Positions 11,977 to 64,000 of a DNA stretch of 64,000 nt are shown piece by piece. Position numbers and translations under genes: made by a program. Numbering within the stretch: the stretch's first letter is position 1; every line of letters starts with the position of its first letter. Origin of the DNA: Arcobacter sp. CECT 8983 (GTDB taxonomy: Bacteria > Campylobacterota > Campylobacteria > Campylobacterales > Arcobacteraceae); the NCBI RefSeq assembly GCF_004118855.1, contig NZ_PDKF01000008.1:124001-188000 (forward strand). The letters run 5' to 3'. Under the pieces are notes generated by a model that saw only the letters and a list, made by a program, of their open reading frames with translations, was not told the DNA's origin and did not search any database.

Positions 11977-12501
11977 ATGACAAAAGCTATTTTTTTAGAT
12001 AGAGATGGAGTAGTAAATGTTGAAAAAAACTACTTATACAAAATAGAAGAGTTTGAGTTTATTGATGGAATATTTGAGTCTTTAAAAAAAATACAAAGCT
12101 TAGGCTACAAAATATTTATAATAACAAACCAATCAGGTATTAGTAGAGGGTATTATTCAGTAGATGATTTTGAAAAACTTACTTCATGGATGTTAGAAGA
12201 GTTTAGAAATAATGAAATTGTAATATCGCAAGTAGAGTTTTGTCCCCATGGTCCCAATGACAATTGTCTTTGTAGAAAACCTAAAAGTGGAATGATAGAT
12301 AAAATACTAAAAAACTATGATATTGATTTAAAAAATTCATGGTTAGTAGGAGATAAATCTTCTGACATAGAATGTGCTCAACATGCTGGAATATCTAATA
12401 CAATCCAAGTAAAATCAGGACATAAGTTTAAAAATGATGACTCAAAAGCAGACTATATTTGTGAAAGTATTAAGGATATAGATAAAATTATACAAACATA
12501 A
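11977..12501 (+). CDS. gmhB: D-glycero-beta-D-manno-heptose 1,7-bisphosphate 7-phosphatase
   Basis: HAD-family phosphatase of ADP-heptose synthesis, needed for the LPS/LOS inner core. The 174-residue protein has the catalytic FLDRDGVVN, the TNQSGISRGY motif and the zinc loop CPHGPNDNCLCRKP that distinguish GmhB from histidinol phosphatase relatives lacking this context. Start 11977 is chosen because TAAGG at 11966-11970 is 6 nt upstream. The partner kinase hldA lies at 16452 on the same strand, consistent with heptose pathway use; gmhA, hldC and hldD are not in the window. Confidence 0.92.
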   Translation: MTKAIFLDRDGVVNVEKNYLYKIEEFEFIDGIFESLKKIQSLGYKIFIITNQSGISRGYYSVDDFEKLTSWMLEEFRNNEIVISQVEFCPHGPNDNCLCRKPKSGMIDKILKNYDIDLKNSWLVGDKSSDIECAQHAGISNTIQVKSGHKFKNDDSKADYICESIKDIDKIIQT

Positions 12502-49892: not shown

Positions 49893-50639
49893 TATTTTTA
49901 TATTTTTTATTATATTTTTAATTTTAGTAATTCTAGTTTTTGAACTAGGGTGGGTAGAAAGAAACTCAATAGTATCTTTTTTACCTTCATTCATATTCTC
50001 CCAAAATTTTACAGCTTCATTTAAATCATATCCTGCTTTGTGCATAAGATAAATTCCTATTTCATCTGCTTCATTTTCTTGCATTCTGCCATAGGGCATT
50101 AAAACTCCATATTGAGAACCTAAACCATATGCAATATTAAAAGATTTTGTGTATTCTGGTGCTTGACTTGCAATTGCAATATTTCCTAAAATTTGAATAC
50201 CTTGTGAAACCATATTTGTACTTATTCTCTCTGCTCCATGCCTAGCAAGAGCATGGGCAATTTCATGGGAAATAACTGTTGCAAGTTGGTCATCATTTTT
50301 AGCAACTTCTAAAATACCGGTATAAACAACAACTTTCCCTCCAGGTAAACAAAAAGCATTTTTAGCTTTATTTTCAATTAGGTTAAATTCCCAATCATAA
50401 TTTTTATTAGCTACTTTTGCTATTTTTTTACCAATCTCTTTTACTCTATTTGAATCTTTTGTATTTTTTATAACTTTTGATTCTTTTAAGGTTTTTTCAT
50501 AACTTTGCTCACCTAATGCTAACTCTTTTTCATCAGAGATTAATATCATTTGACTTCTATTAGTATATGGTGTTTTACTGGTACAGCCAACAATTAATAA
50601 TGCTAAAAAAAGTATTGAAACTATCTGTTTTATTCTCAC
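49884..50639 (-). CDS. M48-family metallopeptidase, lipoprotein (LoiP/YcaL type)
   Basis: 251 residues. Lipobox LIVGC (Cys about residue 19), then a periplasmic zinc protease domain with HExxH in TVISHEIAHALARHGAERIS, third ligand Glu in MQENEADEIGIYLMHKAGYD, and FLSTHPSSKTRI. Single-domain M48B proteases of this type work in outer-membrane protein quality control. The start follows AAGGAGAT by about 5 bp. No partner genes adjoin. Confidence 0.92.
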   Translation of the reverse strand: MRIKQIVSILFLALLIVGCTSKTPYTNRSQMILISDEKELALGEQSYEKTLKESKVIKNTKDSNRVKEIGKKIAKVANKNYDWEFNLIENKAKNAFCLPGGKVVVYTGILEVAKNDDQLATVISHEIAHALARHGAERISTNMVSQGIQILGNIAIASQAPEYTKSFNIAYGLGSQYGVLMPYGRMQENEADEIGIYLMHKAGYDLNEAVKFWENMNEGKKDTIEFLSTHPSSKTRITKIKNIIKNIKIKK

Positions 50640-57018: not shown

Positions 57019-57211
57019 AGGTAACCTTTCGTAAATAGAATTTTAAAATATTAGCATAAATACTCTATTATTAAAATATTTGATTTTTATTATTAAAATA
57101 TATTATCTGAAATATTGTAATTTTAAATGTAATGGAAACTGTTTTATGAAAAATCATTCACTATTAATTAGAAATATTGTATTATTAATAAAATAATTCT
57201 AAGGATTTATC

Positions 57212-57805
57212 ATATCAACTATAAAAGAGACTAAAAAAAATAATATTATTGAAAATGCATTAAAGCTTTTTTCTCAAAAAGGTTTTTATAATACAACTAT
57301 TCCTGATATTGCAAAAGCTATGAAGATGAGTGTGGGTAATATGTACAATTACTTTTCTTCAAAAGAAGAATTAGCAAAGTTTGCAATTAAGTATTCAACT
57401 AATATCTTAGCTAATGATTTAAGAGAAATTAATCAAATGGAAATTTCATCTAGGGATAAAGTTTTTTTATTTACAAGAAAATATTTAGAAAATGTTCAAG
57501 ATTCACCAGAAGTAATTGAATATTTTTTAAGGGTTTACTTATCAAATAGAGAAGTATTTAATAAAGATTGTGAAGGTTTTTTATGTGTAAGTGAATTTGT
57601 AACTGAAGTAATGATTTTACTTGATGAAGGAGCTGCTAAAAATGAGTTTAGACAACAAGAGTTCTTTCCTGCTTTTGCAATGATTATGGGAGCATTAGGT
57701 GGTTTTGCTTTTCTTTCAGGAGAAAAGGTTTTAGAAAAAGATATAGCATTTTACTCTGATGACGTTGCTGAAAATATCTACAGAGCTTTAAAGTACGAAG
57801 GTTAA
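57212..57805 (+). CDS. TetR/AcrR-family regulator with apparent ATA start
   Basis: From 57212 the protein has 197 residues: a TetR DNA-binding domain (about 1-55; KNNIIENALKLFSQKGF, TTIPDIAKAMKMSVGNMYNYF) and a ligand/dimer domain ending in NIYRALKYEG. The only ATG/GTG/TTG in the reading frame upstream of the core is the ATG at 57320, which would remove the helix-turn-helix. The frame opens after TAA at 57200-57202. AAGGA (57201-57205) sits 6 nt before ATA 57212-57214; ATC at 57209 is the alternative. I therefore infer a non-standard start, or a base change in this strain. It is followed by a terminator and the sensor-type hydrogenase; likely controls hydrogenase genes through palindromes at 60222 and 60331. 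Confidence 0.8.
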   Translation: MSTIKETKKNNIIENALKLFSQKGFYNTTIPDIAKAMKMSVGNMYNYFSSKEELAKFAIKYSTNILANDLREINQMEISSRDKVFLFTRKYLENVQDSPEVIEYFLRVYLSNREVFNKDCEGFLCVSEFVTEVMILLDEGAAKNEFRQQEFFPAFAMIMGALGGFAFLSGEKVLEKDIAFYSDDVAENIYRALKYEG

Positions 57806-57849: not shown

Positions 57850-57868
57850 AGAAAGTAGTTTTTTGGTA

Positions 57869-58768
57869 ATGAATAATAAAATTAAAAAACCAAAAATAGT
57901 TTGGCTACAAGCTATAACATGTAATGGCAATACACACTCATTATTAAGTGCAAATGCAAACAGATTAAAACTATTTTTAGATAGTTTTGACTTAGTTTAT
58001 CATCCTTCTTTAACTACTGATACTTTATTAAATGACTTATTAATAGAAAAAAATGAAATTGACTTTTTACTTGTTGAAGGTGCTATTACTTCAAATAAAG
58101 ATTTCTTTCAAATATCAGACCAAGGTATAAATGAAGCTTTAAAAAAGCTTGTTTTAAAATCAAAGTATTTAATAGCAATTGGTTCTTGTGCCTCGTATGG
58201 AGGAGTTCATCAAAAATTTGAACAAAATGATGATATTTGTGGTTTAACTGATGCTTTAGATGAAACAGATATATCATATTTAACCCATCCAATTATAAAT
58301 CTAACTGGTTGTCCTGTTCATCCTGAGTGGATATTTCAAACTTTGTTTTCTCTAAAAGAGTATAAAAAAGTTCCTTTAGATGAAAAAGGAAGACCTAAAG
58401 AGATTTACTCTTATTTAGCTCACCATGGTTGTACTAGAAATGAGTATTTTGAGTGGAAAGTTGAAGCAAAATCCTTTGGACTTAAAGAGGGATGTCTTTT
58501 TTATGAACAAGGATGTCGAGGTCCTATGACTCACTCAAATTGCAATAAAATACTTTGGAATGATGTAAATACAAAAACAAGAGCTGGTATGCCATGTATT
58601 GGTTGTACTGAGTTTGATTTCCCTAGAAATAATATGCTTGAAACAAAAAAGAATATAGGAATTCCTGATGAAGTGCCATTAGGAGTTACTAAAAGGGCAT
58701 ATCTTTCATTAGCTGGTGTTGCAAAGACTTTTAAAATAGATAGATTGAATGAAAAGATTATTAAATGA
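57869..58768 (+). CDS. Cytosolic [NiFe] hydrogenase small subunit, sensor-type (HupU/HoxB-like)
   Basis: 299 residues from ATG 57869. There is no twin-arginine signal peptide, so it stays in the cytosol. Fe-S ligand regions: WLQAITCNGNTHS (proximal), IGSCASYGGVH, TGCPVHPEW, HHGCTRNEYFEW, EGCLFYEQGCRGPMTHSNC and GMPCIGCTE. The usual second Cys of the proximal CxxC is Asn here. Family members are hydrogen-sensing or uptake hydrogenases of group 2. No clear ribosome site precedes the ATG, and the TetR terminator lies just upstream, so expression by read-through is likely. Its stop overlaps the next start by 4 bp. Confidence 0.85.
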   Translation: MNNKIKKPKIVWLQAITCNGNTHSLLSANANRLKLFLDSFDLVYHPSLTTDTLLNDLLIEKNEIDFLLVEGAITSNKDFFQISDQGINEALKKLVLKSKYLIAIGSCASYGGVHQKFEQNDDICGLTDALDETDISYLTHPIINLTGCPVHPEWIFQTLFSLKEYKKVPLDEKGRPKEIYSYLAHHGCTRNEYFEWKVEAKSFGLKEGCLFYEQGCRGPMTHSNCNKILWNDVNTKTRAGMPCIGCTEFDFPRNNMLETKKNIGIPDEVPLGVTKRAYLSLAGVAKTFKIDRLNEKIIK

Positions 58769-60120
58769 AAACTGTAGATATAGTAGAAAGAATAGAGGGC
58801 GAAGCAAAGCTTATTTGCCAATGGGATAAAGAAAAGATATCAGATGTAAAGATACAGTTTTTAAATTTTAGAGGTTTTGAGTTTATATTAAAAGATAAAC
58901 CCATTTTAGATGCATTAGTTTATACTCCAAGAATTTGTGGTATTTGTGGACAAGCTCATTTAAAAGCAACAGTTGAAGCAATAGAAGACATCTATAAAAA
59001 TCATAATGAAGAATTAACTCTAACAAACAAAGCAAAATTGCTTAGAGAGATAGGTTTAAATATTGAAATTATTGATTCACATATAAAGTGGTTTTATATG
59101 TTTATTATGCCTGATATTGTTAAGTTTTCAAATAATAGTTTAGAAGAGTATTCTGCATTAAAAGGAAAAAAATGGTTAGAAGCTTCAAGTATTGCAAGTG
59201 AAACTATCAAGTCTTTAGCTGTTATTGCAGGACAATGGCCTCATACTTCATATATGGTTCCAGGAGGAGTAGTTTCTGATCCTACATTATTAGATTTAGT
59301 AACTATGCAAAACTATATGGACCAAGCAATTAGATTTTATGAAAATAGTTTAATAGGTACTAATTTAGATACTTACCTTAGTTTTAATAAAAGTGAAGAC
59401 TTGTACAAAGTAAAAGGTGATTTAAAAGATTTTATTACAATTTCTTTTGAAAATGGTTTTGAAAAAATTGGAAAATCATACAATAGACATTTGGTATTAG
59501 GAGATTCTCTTTCTTTTGAAAAAGGCAAAATAAGTAGAAAATTAACTAAAAATATTGATTATGAAAACATAGAAGAGTTTACTACAAATAGTTTTGATAT
59601 TGACAAATCAAAAGTATCAAAAGAAGCATATACTTGGTCAAAAACTGCATTATATGCAAATAGTTTTTATGAAACAGGACCTCTTTCAAGAGCCGTAGTT
59701 CAAAATAGAAGTTTTGTAAGTGATATTCATAAACATTATAATGATTCAATGTTTACAAGAGTATTAGCACGAATGGATGAACTAGGCTTTTTACTTTCTA
59801 AAACAAAAGAGTTGATTCAACAAATAAATATAAATGAAGAATCTTTCATAAAACCAAAAGTTTCCCTAAAAGACTTTCATTACGGTATTGGTCAATCATC
59901 AGTAGAAGCCTGTAGGGGGTCTTTATATCATGATGTGGAAATTGAAAATGGAATTATTTCAAAATATGATGTTATAACACCTACTGTTTGGAACCTTGGA
60001 CCTGGGATTGATAATAAACTTTCAACTTCACAAAAAGCAATAGTAGGAATAGACTCTTTAGAAAAAGCAAAGTTGATTTTAAGAAGTTTTGATGTTTGTT
60101 CTGTTTGTACAACTCACTAA
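58765..60120 (+). CDS. Cytosolic [NiFe] hydrogenase large subunit, sensor-type (HupV/HoxC-like)
   Basis: 451 residues with the NiFe site motifs: L1 RICGICGQAH (about residues 56-65) and L2 DVCSVCTTH as the last residues of the protein. Catalytic large subunits normally carry a C-terminal extension after L2 that a protease removes; here translation stops exactly after the His, as in regulatory (H2-sensing) hydrogenases. The L2 is DVC rather than DPC. Partner of the preceding gene (4-bp ATGA overlap). No HupT/HoxJ kinase gene is seen in the window. Confidence 0.85.
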   Translation: MKTVDIVERIEGEAKLICQWDKEKISDVKIQFLNFRGFEFILKDKPILDALVYTPRICGICGQAHLKATVEAIEDIYKNHNEELTLTNKAKLLREIGLNIEIIDSHIKWFYMFIMPDIVKFSNNSLEEYSALKGKKWLEASSIASETIKSLAVIAGQWPHTSYMVPGGVVSDPTLLDLVTMQNYMDQAIRFYENSLIGTNLDTYLSFNKSEDLYKVKGDLKDFITISFENGFEKIGKSYNRHLVLGDSLSFEKGKISRKLTKNIDYENIEEFTTNSFDIDKSKVSKEAYTWSKTALYANSFYETGPLSRAVVQNRSFVSDIHKHYNDSMFTRVLARMDELGFLLSKTKELIQQININEESFIKPKVSLKDFHYGIGQSSVEACRGSLYHDVEIENGIISKYDVITPTVWNLGPGIDNKLSTSQKAIVGIDSLEKAKLILRSFDVCSVCTTH

Positions 60121-60221: not shown

Positions 60222-60237
60222 AAATGAACGTTCATTT
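60222..60237. promoter_or_regulatory. Palindrome AAATGAACGTTCATTT, candidate TetR operator 1
   Basis: A perfect 16-bp palindrome in the 248-bp gap before hydA. It shares AAATGAA-N2-TTCATTT with the site at 60331-60348, centre-to-centre distance 110 bp. The size and symmetry suit a TetR-family dimer; the regulator gene at 57212 is the obvious candidate. Confidence 0.6.
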
Positions 60238-60330
60238 TATCAATGCTATGTTTATGCTACTAATTCAACAAAAATAATCATTTTTAATAATTTTATATTA
60301 AGTAATTAATAGTTAATTTTACAATGATAA

Positions 60331-60348
60331 TAAATGAATATTCATTTA
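60331..60348. promoter_or_regulatory. Palindrome TAAATGAATATTCATTTA, candidate TetR operator 2
   Basis: A perfect 18-bp palindrome 20 bp upstream of the hydA ATG. A -10-like GATAAT at 60326-60331 abuts it, so a bound repressor would cover the transcription start. Second copy of the site at 60222-60237. Confidence 0.6.
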
Positions 60349-60368: not shown

Positions 60369-61607
60369 ATGATTGATTCTCAAGAGATGGTAAAAAAAGT
60401 TTTTACCCAAAATTCCGCTAGAATTGATACAAATAAAGGTGATGCTTATTATAATTCACTTTTTGAAAAAGCAAAAAGTAGGTTATCAGCATTAAGAAAA
60501 CAACCTGCACTTAAAGATATTGATCTGATGGAGGTTGTAGAAAGTGAAGGTGTAAATAGAAGAGATTTTATGAAGTGGGCAAGTGCAACAACTGCAACAC
60601 TAATGTTACCTCCTATGTTTACTCCTTTAGTTGCTGAAGCAACAGAACTAATGAATAGAGTTCCTGTTGTATGGATTGAGTTACAAGACTGTGCTGGTAA
60701 CTCAGAAGCTATTTTAAGATCAGCTACTCCAACTGTAGATGATCTACTTTTTGATGTACTATCTTTAGAGTATCATCATACTTTACAAGCTGCTTCAGGT
60801 CATCAAGCTGAACATCAGTTAGAAGATGCAATTCATACTTTTAAAGGGAAATATTTACTATTTGTTGAAGGTGCAATTCCAAAAGCAATGAATGGTCAAT
60901 ATGGAACAATTGGTCCTGGTGGTGAAACTTTTGAAGAGAATCTTAATAGACTATCTAAAGATGCTGCTGCTGTAGTTGCAGTTGGTACATGTGCTACCTT
61001 CGGTGGTATTCCAGCTGCTGCTCCAAATCCAACAGGTGCCGTTGGTGTAATGGATATTGTAAAAGGTAAGCCAATTGTTAATATTCCTGCCTGTCCAGCA
61101 AATCCTGCAAATATGGTTGGTGTAGTATTACACTATGTATTAACAGGTCAAGTTCCTGAGTTAGACTCTTTATTAAGACCTAAATTTGCATTTGGGTATA
61201 GAATTCACGATAACTGTGAGAGAAGAGCACACTTTGATGCAGGTGAATATGTAGAAGAGTGGGGCGATGAAGGTGCTAAAAATAACTGGTGTCTATATAA
61301 AATGGGTTGTAAAGGACCTATGACATTTAATAACTGTTCTATTATTAGATATAACGAAGGTGCAAACTGGCCAATTGGTGTAGGTCGTGGTTGTATCGGT
61401 TGTTCTGAACCAGACTTCTGGGATAAATATGCATATGAAAGACCAATGGCAGATGCAAATATCAAAGCTCCTACAGGTGGAGTAGAAAAAACTGTTGATG
61501 AGTTTGGTCTAGGGTTATTAACAGCTACATCAATTGGTATTGGTGTACATGCAGTTGCTAGTGCGGTTGCAGGGAAAAGAACAGTTCATAGTGAAGATGA
61601 GGAATAA
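60369..61607 (+). CDS. hydA: Membrane-bound uptake [NiFe] hydrogenase small subunit
   Basis: 412 residues. The Tat motif NRRDFMKW has its twin arginines at residues 64-65, after an unusually long N-terminal extension; a hydrophobic stretch and cleavage region follow (LMLPPMFTPLVAEA). Mature part: WIELQDCAGNSEA (proximal site, second Cys replaced by Asn), VGTCATFGGIPAA, IPACPANPANM, HDNCERRAHFD, CLYKMGCKGPMTFNNC and GCIGCSEPDFWD. A C-terminal hydrophobic helix (about 378-398) anchors it to the membrane. It transfers electrons from the NiFe site (HydB) to cytochrome b (HydC). AAAAGGAGAAGG precedes the ATG. Confidence 0.94.
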   Translation: MIDSQEMVKKVFTQNSARIDTNKGDAYYNSLFEKAKSRLSALRKQPALKDIDLMEVVESEGVNRRDFMKWASATTATLMLPPMFTPLVAEATELMNRVPVVWIELQDCAGNSEAILRSATPTVDDLLFDVLSLEYHHTLQAASGHQAEHQLEDAIHTFKGKYLLFVEGAIPKAMNGQYGTIGPGGETFEENLNRLSKDAAAVVAVGTCATFGGIPAAAPNPTGAVGVMDIVKGKPIVNIPACPANPANMVGVVLHYVLTGQVPELDSLLRPKFAFGYRIHDNCERRAHFDAGEYVEEWGDEGAKNNWCLYKMGCKGPMTFNNCSIIRYNEGANWPIGVGRGCIGCSEPDFWDKYAYERPMADANIKAPTGGVEKTVDEFGLGLLTATSIGIGVHAVASAVAGKRTVHSEDEE

Positions 61608-61609
61608 TA

Positions 61610-63346
61610 ATGAGTAAACATGTAGTAATAGATCCAATAACAAGAATTGAAGGACATCTTAGAATTGAAGCTGTAATTGATGATAACAATATTATTCAAG
61701 AAGCTTATAGTTCATCAACGATGTTTAGAGGTATTGAAGAAATTTTAAAAGGTAGAGATCCAAGAGATTGTGGTCTTTTAGCTATGAGAATTTGTGGTGT
61801 ATGTACTGGAACTCACTATCAAAGAAGTATTGAAGCTGTTGAACATGCATTTAATGTAACTATTCCAAAGAATGCAAGGATTGTAAGAAACCTAATGCAA
61901 GGTGGATTATATATTCATGACCATATTGTTCACTTCTATCACTTACATGCTCTTGACTGGGTAGATATTACAAAAGCTTTAGAAGCAGACCCAAAGAAAA
62001 CTGTAGAAGAAGCACAAAAATGGGCTAAACTTTCAGGTCAAAGAGCTTGGAATGCAAGTGAAGATAATTATGCAGCAGTTCAAGAAAGAGTTACGAAGTA
62101 TGTAAAACAAGGAAGACTTGGAATTTTTGGAAATGCATATTGGGGAAGTAAAGCATATAAGTTAACTCCTGAGCAAAATCTAATTGGTCTTTCTCACTAT
62201 TTAGATGCTTTAGACTTACAAAGAGAAGTAGCAAAAGCACAGGCTATTTTTGGTGGTAAAAACCCTCATCCACAATCAATTGTTGTTGGTGGAGTAACTT
62301 GTGTTCAAGATATTAAAAATCCAGTAAGAGTTGCTGAGTTCAAAGATATTATTCAAAAAGCACTTAAGTTTACAAAAGAAGCATATTTACCAGATGTATA
62401 TATGGCAGGAACAATGTATGCTGATGAAGCACTTGAAGGTGTTGGTGCTGGTATTGGTAACTTTATGTCATATGGTGATTTTAATTTAGATGATTTACCA
62501 TTTTATAAGTCATCAAAGCTATTCCCATCAGGTATAGTAATGAATAAAGACTTATCAAAAGTTTATGAATTAGACCAAACAAAAATTACAGAAGATGTAA
62601 CTCATGCTTGGTATGAAGGTACAACAAATAAACACCCATATGATGGTGTTACTAATCCTAAATATACTGGATTTAGAGAGAAAAAAGATGGTATTGCTTA
62701 TTTAGATACTGACAATAAATACTCTTGGATTAAATCTCCATTATATGATGATGAAAGAATGGAAGTTGGTCCATTAGCAAGAATGGTTGTTGGTGTTGCA
62801 AAAGGTGATAAAAAAATCACTGATCACGTAACTAAGTTCTTAAAAAATGGAAACCTTCCTACAAAAGTTCTTTTCTCTACTGTAGGAAGAACAGCTGCAA
62901 GGGCTATTGAAACTGAGTTAATGTGTGAAGAAGTTATCAACTGGTGTGATGAGTTAGCTGTTAATGTTGCAAATGGTGATTTATCTACTTGGACTGAATT
63001 TGATTTTGATAAAGTAGCAAAAGACGCTCAAGGATTTGGGATGGCTGAAGCACCAAGAGGTAGTTTAGGTCACTGGGTTAAAATAAAAGATGGAAAAGTA
63101 GTAAACTATCAAGCAGTTGTTCCTTCAACTTGGAATGCTGCACCAAAAGATTACAAAGGAAGACTAGGAGCATATGAAGCTTCTTTAGTTGGAACCAAAG
63201 TTGTTAATCCTGATGAACCTTTAGAAATTATTAGAACAGTGCATAGTTTTGATCCTTGTATTGCTTGTGCAGTTCATATTGTAGATACGAATGGAAAAGA
63301 ACTGGCAGTTTATAAAGTAGATCCTGTAGGAGGATGCCGTGCCTAA
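61610..63346 (+). CDS. hydB: Membrane-bound uptake [NiFe] hydrogenase large subunit
   Basis: 578 residues. Begins VVIDPITRIEGHLRIE; L1 RICGVCTGTH (about residues 60-69); L2 DPCIACAVH near the end, followed by a 22-residue C-terminal extension (IVDTNGKELAVYKVDPVGGCRA) of the type cleaved by a HydD/HyaD-like protease after NiFe insertion. Contains SGQRAWNASEDNYAAVQ. It starts 2 bp after hydA. The last codons contain the AGGAGG ribosome site and GTG start of hydC, so translation is coupled. Confidence 0.97.
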   Translation: MSKHVVIDPITRIEGHLRIEAVIDDNNIIQEAYSSSTMFRGIEEILKGRDPRDCGLLAMRICGVCTGTHYQRSIEAVEHAFNVTIPKNARIVRNLMQGGLYIHDHIVHFYHLHALDWVDITKALEADPKKTVEEAQKWAKLSGQRAWNASEDNYAAVQERVTKYVKQGRLGIFGNAYWGSKAYKLTPEQNLIGLSHYLDALDLQREVAKAQAIFGGKNPHPQSIVVGGVTCVQDIKNPVRVAEFKDIIQKALKFTKEAYLPDVYMAGTMYADEALEGVGAGIGNFMSYGDFNLDDLPFYKSSKLFPSGIVMNKDLSKVYELDQTKITEDVTHAWYEGTTNKHPYDGVTNPKYTGFREKKDGIAYLDTDNKYSWIKSPLYDDERMEVGPLARMVVGVAKGDKKITDHVTKFLKNGNLPTKVLFSTVGRTAARAIETELMCEEVINWCDELAVNVANGDLSTWTEFDFDKVAKDAQGFGMAEAPRGSLGHWVKIKDGKVVNYQAVVPSTWNAAPKDYKGRLGAYEASLVGTKVVNPDEPLEIIRTVHSFDPCIACAVHIVDTNGKELAVYKVDPVGGCRA

Positions 63347-64000
63347 AATGAAGCGGGTTGAAAGAATGACCCCAATCATGCGAATCATTCACTGGACGAA
63401 TGCTATTTGTATGATTGTTGCGGTTGCAACCGGGCTATATATTGGATATCCATACTATCAAACATTAATTGCTGATCCAGCAGTAGATAAATATGTTATG
63501 GCATGGAATAGATGGGGACATTTCATCGCTGCAATTATTTTTGATGTTACAGCAATCTTAATTGGGTATTTATATCTTTTTTCAAGGTTTGAAAAGCCTT
63601 ATAGAAAGATTTTACCTACAAAGAAAAACTTTATTGAGTTTTGTGAAGTGTTCTTTAACTTAATGACATTCAATAGAAGAAAGAAGTTTGATACGGAGTA
63701 TAGTGATTCATATAATATTATGTTCTTTACTCTATTTCATATTCTATTAGTTTTTATGTTATTAACTGGTCTTCAGATGTATGTTCATGGGTTAGCATCT
63801 GGACATAGTTCTATTGGAGCTTGGTGGCCTTGGATATTACATCTTACAACTGATTGGACTTTAACTGTATTTGGTGGAAATATGGGAGTTAGAATAGCTC
63901 ACCACACAGCCATGTATTTAATTCTTATGTGGGTTATGTGTCATATTTATTATCAAATATGGAGAACAATTTTTTGGAGAGAAGGTGACATCAATATTGT
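63339..64000 (+). CDS. hydC: Hydrogenase cytochrome b subunit, N-terminal part (runs off right edge)
   Basis: At least 220 codons, truncated by the window end. GTG start at 63339, five bases after AGGAGG and overlapping the hydB stop; an ATG at 63348 is 14 bases from that ribosome site and less likely. It begins MPKMKRVERMTPIMRIIHWTNA with the histidine of helix 1 that ligates haem b, and has at least four hydrophobic helices, including LLTGLQMYVHGLASG and VRIAHHTAMYLILMWVMCHI with the later haem-ligand histidines. It anchors HydAB and reduces the quinone pool. Confidence 0.93.
   Translation, partial: MPKMKRVERMTPIMRIIHWTNAICMIVAVATGLYIGYPYYQTLIADPAVDKYVMAWNRWGHFIAAIIFDVTAILIGYLYLFSRFEKPYRKILPTKKNFIEFCEVFFNLMTFNRRKKFDTEYSDSYNIMFFTLFHILLVFMLLTGLQMYVHGLASGHSSIGAWWPWILHLTTDWTLTVFGGNMGVRIAHHTAMYLILMWVMCHIYYQIWRTIFWREGDINI

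Follow-up and report, generated by a model that had tools for sequence, protein, structure and literature searches.

Two near-identical palindromes stand in front of the uptake hydrogenase operon hydABC in the window, by which we mean the whole 64,000-nucleotide stretch of Arcobacter sp. CECT 8983 DNA that was analysed, and a tetR gene lies in the same cluster. The locus therefore raises the question of whether the TetR protein controls this operon through the palindromes and, if so, in response to what. In the window, the genes after tetR are hupS and hupL, for a soluble group 2 [NiFe] hydrogenase, with hydABC coming next, as follows.

57147 to 57160, no strand assigned: degenerate long-spacing site TGAAAAATCATTCA, 5' of tetR
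57212 to 57805, + strand: tetR, probable repressor; start codon ATA behind an AAGGA ribosome-binding site; C120 and C125 near-invariant
57863 to 58768, + strand: hupS, small subunit of a cytoplasmic group 2 hydrogenase and the proposed sensor subunit
58765 to 60120, + strand: hupL, group 2 hydrogenase large subunit, ending CSVCTTH and without a C-terminal extension
60369 to 61607, + strand: hydA1, proposed target operon; encodes the small subunit of uptake hydrogenase 1, exported by Tat
61610 to 63346, + strand: hydB1, large subunit of uptake hydrogenase 1, proposed target
63339 to 64000, + strand: hydC1, cytochrome b subunit, continuing beyond the window end, proposed target

The tetR-hupS-hupL genes, together with downstream hydrogenase genes, were present in nearly all of 66 loci from the family, a few of which end at contig ends and one of which (L135) holds tetR alone. 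The same tetR-hupS-hupL order also holds elsewhere in the class Campylobacteria, in 20 loci of further families.

A sequence-only reading of the window had placed two perfect palindromes 110 bp apart upstream of hydA1. Both are perfect and lie where that reading put them, and their centre-to-centre distance is indeed 110 bp.

60222 to 60237, no strand assigned: predicted distal hyd1 operator, AAATGAACGTTCATTT, with short TGAA-N2-TTCA spacing; spacing kept only in the nearest relatives
60331 to 60348, no strand assigned: predicted proximal hyd1 operator, TAAATGAATATTCATTTA, over the inferred hydA1 transcription start; conserved in nearly all TetR-positive relatives

As about 3.4 perfect palindromes of at least 16 bp are expected by chance in this AT-rich window, palindromy alone is little proof, and we dropped it as evidence. 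Instead, we searched the 2.74-Mb genome for the sequence that the two palindromes share. With no mismatches allowed, AATGAAYRTTCATT occurs exactly five times, always at a hydrogenase promoter and immediately upstream of the operon: twice at hyd1 (window positions 60223 and 60333), twice just 5' of the second hydrogenase operon, hyd2 (contig C8 positions 190345 and 190425, with hydA2 at C8:190459), and once just 5' of hypB (C8 position 205196, with hypB at C8:205224). No copy of AATGAAYRTTCATT arose in 11.2 Mb of sequence simulated with an order-3 Markov model. The sequence shared by the palindromes is far beyond chance.

We then compared genomes that carry TetR with genomes that lack it, scoring a strict hydA1 site as TGAAYRTTCA or TGAAT-N4-ATTCA within 150 bp. 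Such a site precedes hydA1 in 52 of 57 TetR-positive genomes versus 0 of 11 TetR-negative genomes (Fisher 3e-9); with one mismatch allowed and the distance limited to 60 bp, the counts are 57 of 57 versus 1 of 11. One apparent exception with a site and no TetR (G095) was rejected, as hupL adjoins hydA there and tetR was most likely lost to a contig end. On the HydA1 tree, TetR changed at least five times independently, and the site changed in the same direction in 4.1 of 5 pairs on average and never in the opposite direction, five independent pairs being too few for a sign test to reach 0.05. At hypB, which lies apart from tetR, a site was found in 20 of 20 TetR-positive genomes versus 0 of 9 TetR-negative genomes (Fisher 1e-7). 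The sequence-only reading had named absence of the palindromes from related hyd loci as evidence against its proposal; the sites are present in those loci and missing where TetR is missing, which answers that objection. Its prediction that TetR controls the hydrogenase is thus strongly supported by comparative genomics, while the DNA looping that it added as a possibility is unsupported, as described below.

The sites occur with two spacings. The short form at hydA1 of the family is TAAATGAAYRTTCATTT (TGAA-N2-TTCA), and the long form, TGAATRATYATTCA (TGAA-N6-TTCA), is frequent at hydA2, hypB and nrfH and in most other families. Both forms overlap in TGAATGAAYATTCATTT, found in two loci (L197 and L199) about 3.0 and 3.2 kb past the tetR start, and this overlapped site is a possible evolutionary link between them. 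The 18-bp palindrome at 60331 can likewise be read as two overlapping long forms, each with a weak half-site TAAA for TGAA. A relaxed long-form pattern with two mismatches was tried genome-wide and set aside, as its 155 matches versus 139 in the control showed no enrichment.

The sole perfect long-form site in the genome, TGAATGATCATTCA, lies 72 bp before nrfHA, which encodes cytochrome c nitrite reductase (L014 positions 1503-1516, equal to contig C4:113601-113614). A strict site precedes 8 of the 13 nrfH copies found in 12 TetR-positive genomes, and some of the remaining copies have a degenerate site; no site was found before nrfH in the two TetR-negative genomes that have this gene. The sequence-only reading had not recognised that hyd2, hypB and nrfHA carry these sites too, that TetR is linked to HupSL or that tetR lacks a standard start codon. 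Separately, TTGATTTCGGTCAAG, between the two hydA2 operators (L005, about 12367-12381), and TTGATTAATGTCAA, in an nrfH promoter (L207), resemble CRP/FNR-type boxes, which suggests that hyd2 and nrfHA may share an activator.

The palindromes are almost certainly target sites of a TetR-type regulator of H2 use, and we consider it probable that TetR mediates H2-relieved repression of an H2-oxidising regulon through them. In such a scheme, the TetR protein encoded at 57212-57805 would occupy the hydA1 promoter at its transcription start, blocking RNA polymerase, and would likewise repress hyd2, nrfHA and the hyp maturation operon. In the presence of H2, TetR would release its operators and the regulon would be switched on; HupSL, as one unit with TetR, would sense H2 and tell TetR to release.

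Published expression data bear on the proposed H2 response. RNA-seq of a relative, A. butzleri hDNRA1, grown with H2 showed both hynAB sets up 2.3-6.2 fold, nrfA up 4-fold and huaSL down, in a contrast in which the electron donor changed too and 1191 genes were altered in all; in the sections of that report cited here, the authors offer no regulator for the H2-induced operons (PMC12286921). The induction by H2 of two hydrogenases and nrfA in A. butzleri is consistent with the predicted TetR regulon. Counting against H2-relieved repression, hydB of Sulfurospirillum multivorans was expressed in nearly all conditions tested, according to an excerpt of PMC5357620.

Members of the TetR family bind as dimers to palindromic operators that overlap promoters, and the operators described here are predicted from co-occurrence; the protein itself has the sequence and fold of the family. 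Its N-terminal helix-turn-helix matches TetR_N (PF00440) at 56.5 bits versus a cut-off of 24, its AlphaFold model has nine helices (mean pLDDT 77.8, with residues 101-120 of low confidence), and Foldseek matches of the model are TetR proteins with TM scores up to ~0.8. Residues 37-48 take in the expected recognition helix and do not vary across the aligned sample, as the conserved half-site requires. Bacillus FadR and RutR, both of the TetR family, are the nearest folds and give weak profile matches, although Foldseek identity is only 14-22% and the NCBIfam FadR score is 39.6 versus a cut-off of 200, which places the protein outside that group. The FadR operator also has TGAATGA-type half-sites. 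We also considered whether the motif matched that of a known regulator, CemR, and dropped the idea, as its paper gives no motif.

Among 51 close orthologs of tetR, 25, including that of the window, lack any ATG, GTG or TTG in frame ahead of the conserved helix. These 25 orthologs have ATT or ATA at the start position behind a well-placed AAGGA box, a feature noted in the window (57212-57214, where the codon is ATA) and among loci L070-L103, and codons 4-37 of tetR are under purifying selection (pN/pS 0.12). Given this box and this selection, translation of tetR very probably begins at ATT or ATA in these orthologs. An operator-like site precedes tetR in 20 of 26 orthologs with a standard start versus 3 of 25 without one (Fisher 3.5e-6, not corrected for phylogeny). 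In the window, the degenerate TGAAAAATCATTCA upstream of tetR makes autoregulation possible. We speculate that a weak start codon and self-repression are alternative ways to keep the repressor scarce.

How H2 would reach TetR is a separate matter, for which HupSL is the best candidate. Across 397 genomes of the class (thresholds of E below 1e-20 for TetR and 1e-45 for HupS), TetR and HupS are both present in 112 and discordant in 4. Discordance in G298, where TetR is truncated with a stop, and in G379, which we rejected as a real case of HupS without TetR as its HupS runs into a contig end, looks like decay or artefact. Two genomes (G239 and G418) keep TetR and an operator without HupSL, so HupSL is not strictly required. 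Moreover, since TetR and HupSL are lost together, their association alone cannot separate their roles.

HupSL itself was compared with the H2-sensing regulatory hydrogenases (HoxBC/HupUV), whose small subunit is of group 2 and has no Tat signal. Pfam finds TAT_signal in HydA1 and HydA2 and not in HupS, whose nearest solved relative is 7uur/7utd, which we take to be the group 2 enzyme Huc. All complete HupL sequences retrieved finish with CSVCT and two further residues, which are TH except in two sequences; HydB1 and HydB2 carry C-terminal extensions. In the regulatory hydrogenases, the large subunit has no C-terminal extension and the gas channel holds bulky Ile and Phe residues. At these gas-channel positions, HupL has Ile in 61 of 61 sequences and Phe in 49 of 61; as Ile also occurs in the Huc structure and Phe is not universal, this signature is not proof of a sensor. 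The change of CxxC to CxGN in HupS was dropped as a novel cluster feature, the same motif being present in the Huc structure.

The role of group 2 hydrogenases in Campylobacterota has been disputed for years, with sensing, catalytic uptake and ferredoxin-linked functions proposed, and S. denitrificans has no soluble H2-uptake activity despite a transcribed group 2 large-subunit gene (PMC4584964). Cited passages of PMC12286921 call huaSL of A. butzleri group 2d, and the HupSL described here fits the type of the group 2d HuaSL/HupSL of Campylobacterota and of Aquifex hydrogenase III. HupSL is our leading candidate for the H2 input because it forms one unit with TetR, almost never occurs without TetR and lacks a C-terminal extension, and because of the S. 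denitrificans data. The near-inseparability of HupSL from a TetR that appears to control the regulon is new evidence for the sensor view. Even so, that cytoplasmic HupSL is the H2 sensor of the TetR repressor is a proposal to which we give an even chance.

A direct route for such a signal could involve two cysteines of TetR. C120 is present in 85 of 85 and C125 in 84 of 85 aligned orthologs (codons at window positions 57569-57571 and 57584-57586), and this C-x4-C pair is shared throughout the class and falls in the protein's ligand-binding half, where model confidence is low. These residues are a possible redox or metal site. We only tentatively suggest that HupSL signals H2 directly to TetR, for example by passing electrons to C120/C125 as a disulfide or bound metal centre, which would make a kinase-free H2 switch. 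The same near-invariant cysteines also suit a TetR that represses the regulon in response to redox state, nickel or iron, or a small metabolite, sensed through its own pocket or these two residues, with HupSL as another target or a metabolic enzyme. Retention of TetR without HupSL in G239 and G418, and the metal response (Fur, Ni) of further hydrogenase operons in the phylum (PMC6682613), favour a signal of this kind. However, it does not explain why TetR and HupS co-occur almost perfectly in many genera, and in A. butzleri H2 raises both hydrogenase sets that carry operators (PMC12286921, in the part cited), and we consider it unlikely.

The layout of the hydA1 promoter bears on whether TetR acts as a repressor, and one element of this promoter could be proposed.

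60320 to 60325, + strand: inferred -10-like element TACAAT of the hydA1 promoter, found by sequence inspection; weak

No sigma-70 consensus was found on that strand at the hydA1 promoter. The sequence-only reading had the second palindrome overlap the probable hydA1 transcription start; TACAAT would put +1 near 60332, in agreement with that placement, though the element from which it is derived is weak. The operator begins ~6 bp past this element, 30-46 bp 5' of the start codon, and its overlap with the inferred transcription start is a repressor position. A conserved direct repeat, TTAAGT-N5-ATAAGT, lies ~20-45 bp 5' of the hydA1 operator (about 60298-60316 in the window, where it is degenerate) and is in the same place in most of loci L070-L120. 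This repeat may be the site of a second regulator.

That second element, and the fact that linkage is not binding, would allow TetR to be an activator, or the sites to be bound by another regulator lost along with tetR-hupSL. This is very improbable given the operator position at the transcription start, the disappearance of the sites with TetR at unlinked hypB promoters, and the inheritance of a TetR-type palindrome and a TetR gene as one. Also very improbable is a DNA loop that tightens repression, which the sequence-only reading had raised as a possibility: a minority of genomes do have two sites at hydA1, and about half have two at hydA2, ~68-80 bp apart, but 110 bp is 10.48 helical turns, out of phase, and is found only in L005, L070 and L071, the spacing at hydA1 elsewhere ranges from 61 to 228 bp in mostly non-integral turns, many genomes have a single site, and the hydA2 pairs are also mostly out of phase.

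Repression by TetR, relieved by H2, would resemble known systems in part. As in HoxBC/HupUV with HoxJ/HupT and HoxA/HupR, a cytoplasmic group 2 [NiFe] hydrogenase without a C-terminal extension is encoded beside regulators of uptake hydrogenase and hyp genes. The purpose would be like that of HoxBC/HoxJ/HoxA, whereas here a one-component TetR protein has predicted operators at the targets. The sequence-only reading had called the scheme different from HoxA/HupR, and the linked regulator is a TetR protein; no gene for a histidine kinase (HoxJ/HupT) or an NtrC-type regulator (HoxA/HupR) was recognised by eye among open reading frames from window position 50000 to C8:214000. A TetR-like gene lies 5' of hupSL in S. 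multivorans in the same arrangement, and Kruse et al. suggested that it represses hupSL; as excerpted, their account names neither an operator nor a regulon and makes no connection to hydABC, hyp or nrf genes, unlike the analysis presented here (PMC5357620). In the open-access literature that we searched, PMC5357620 was the sole paper to bear on a TetR for H2 sensing; we found no report of the operators or regulon of this TetR, and the papers retrieved hold no binding or expression experiment on it.

Because HupSL is inherited almost perfectly with a TetR whose predicted operators mark nitrite reductase and maturation genes as well as uptake hydrogenases, the sensor idea can be put to a direct test. 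If it is true, H2 sensing in this phylum, which is common at vents and in sediments, would depend on a one-component repressor and not on a HoxJ/HoxA-type relay, and H2 oxidation and nitrite ammonification would have one switch in common.
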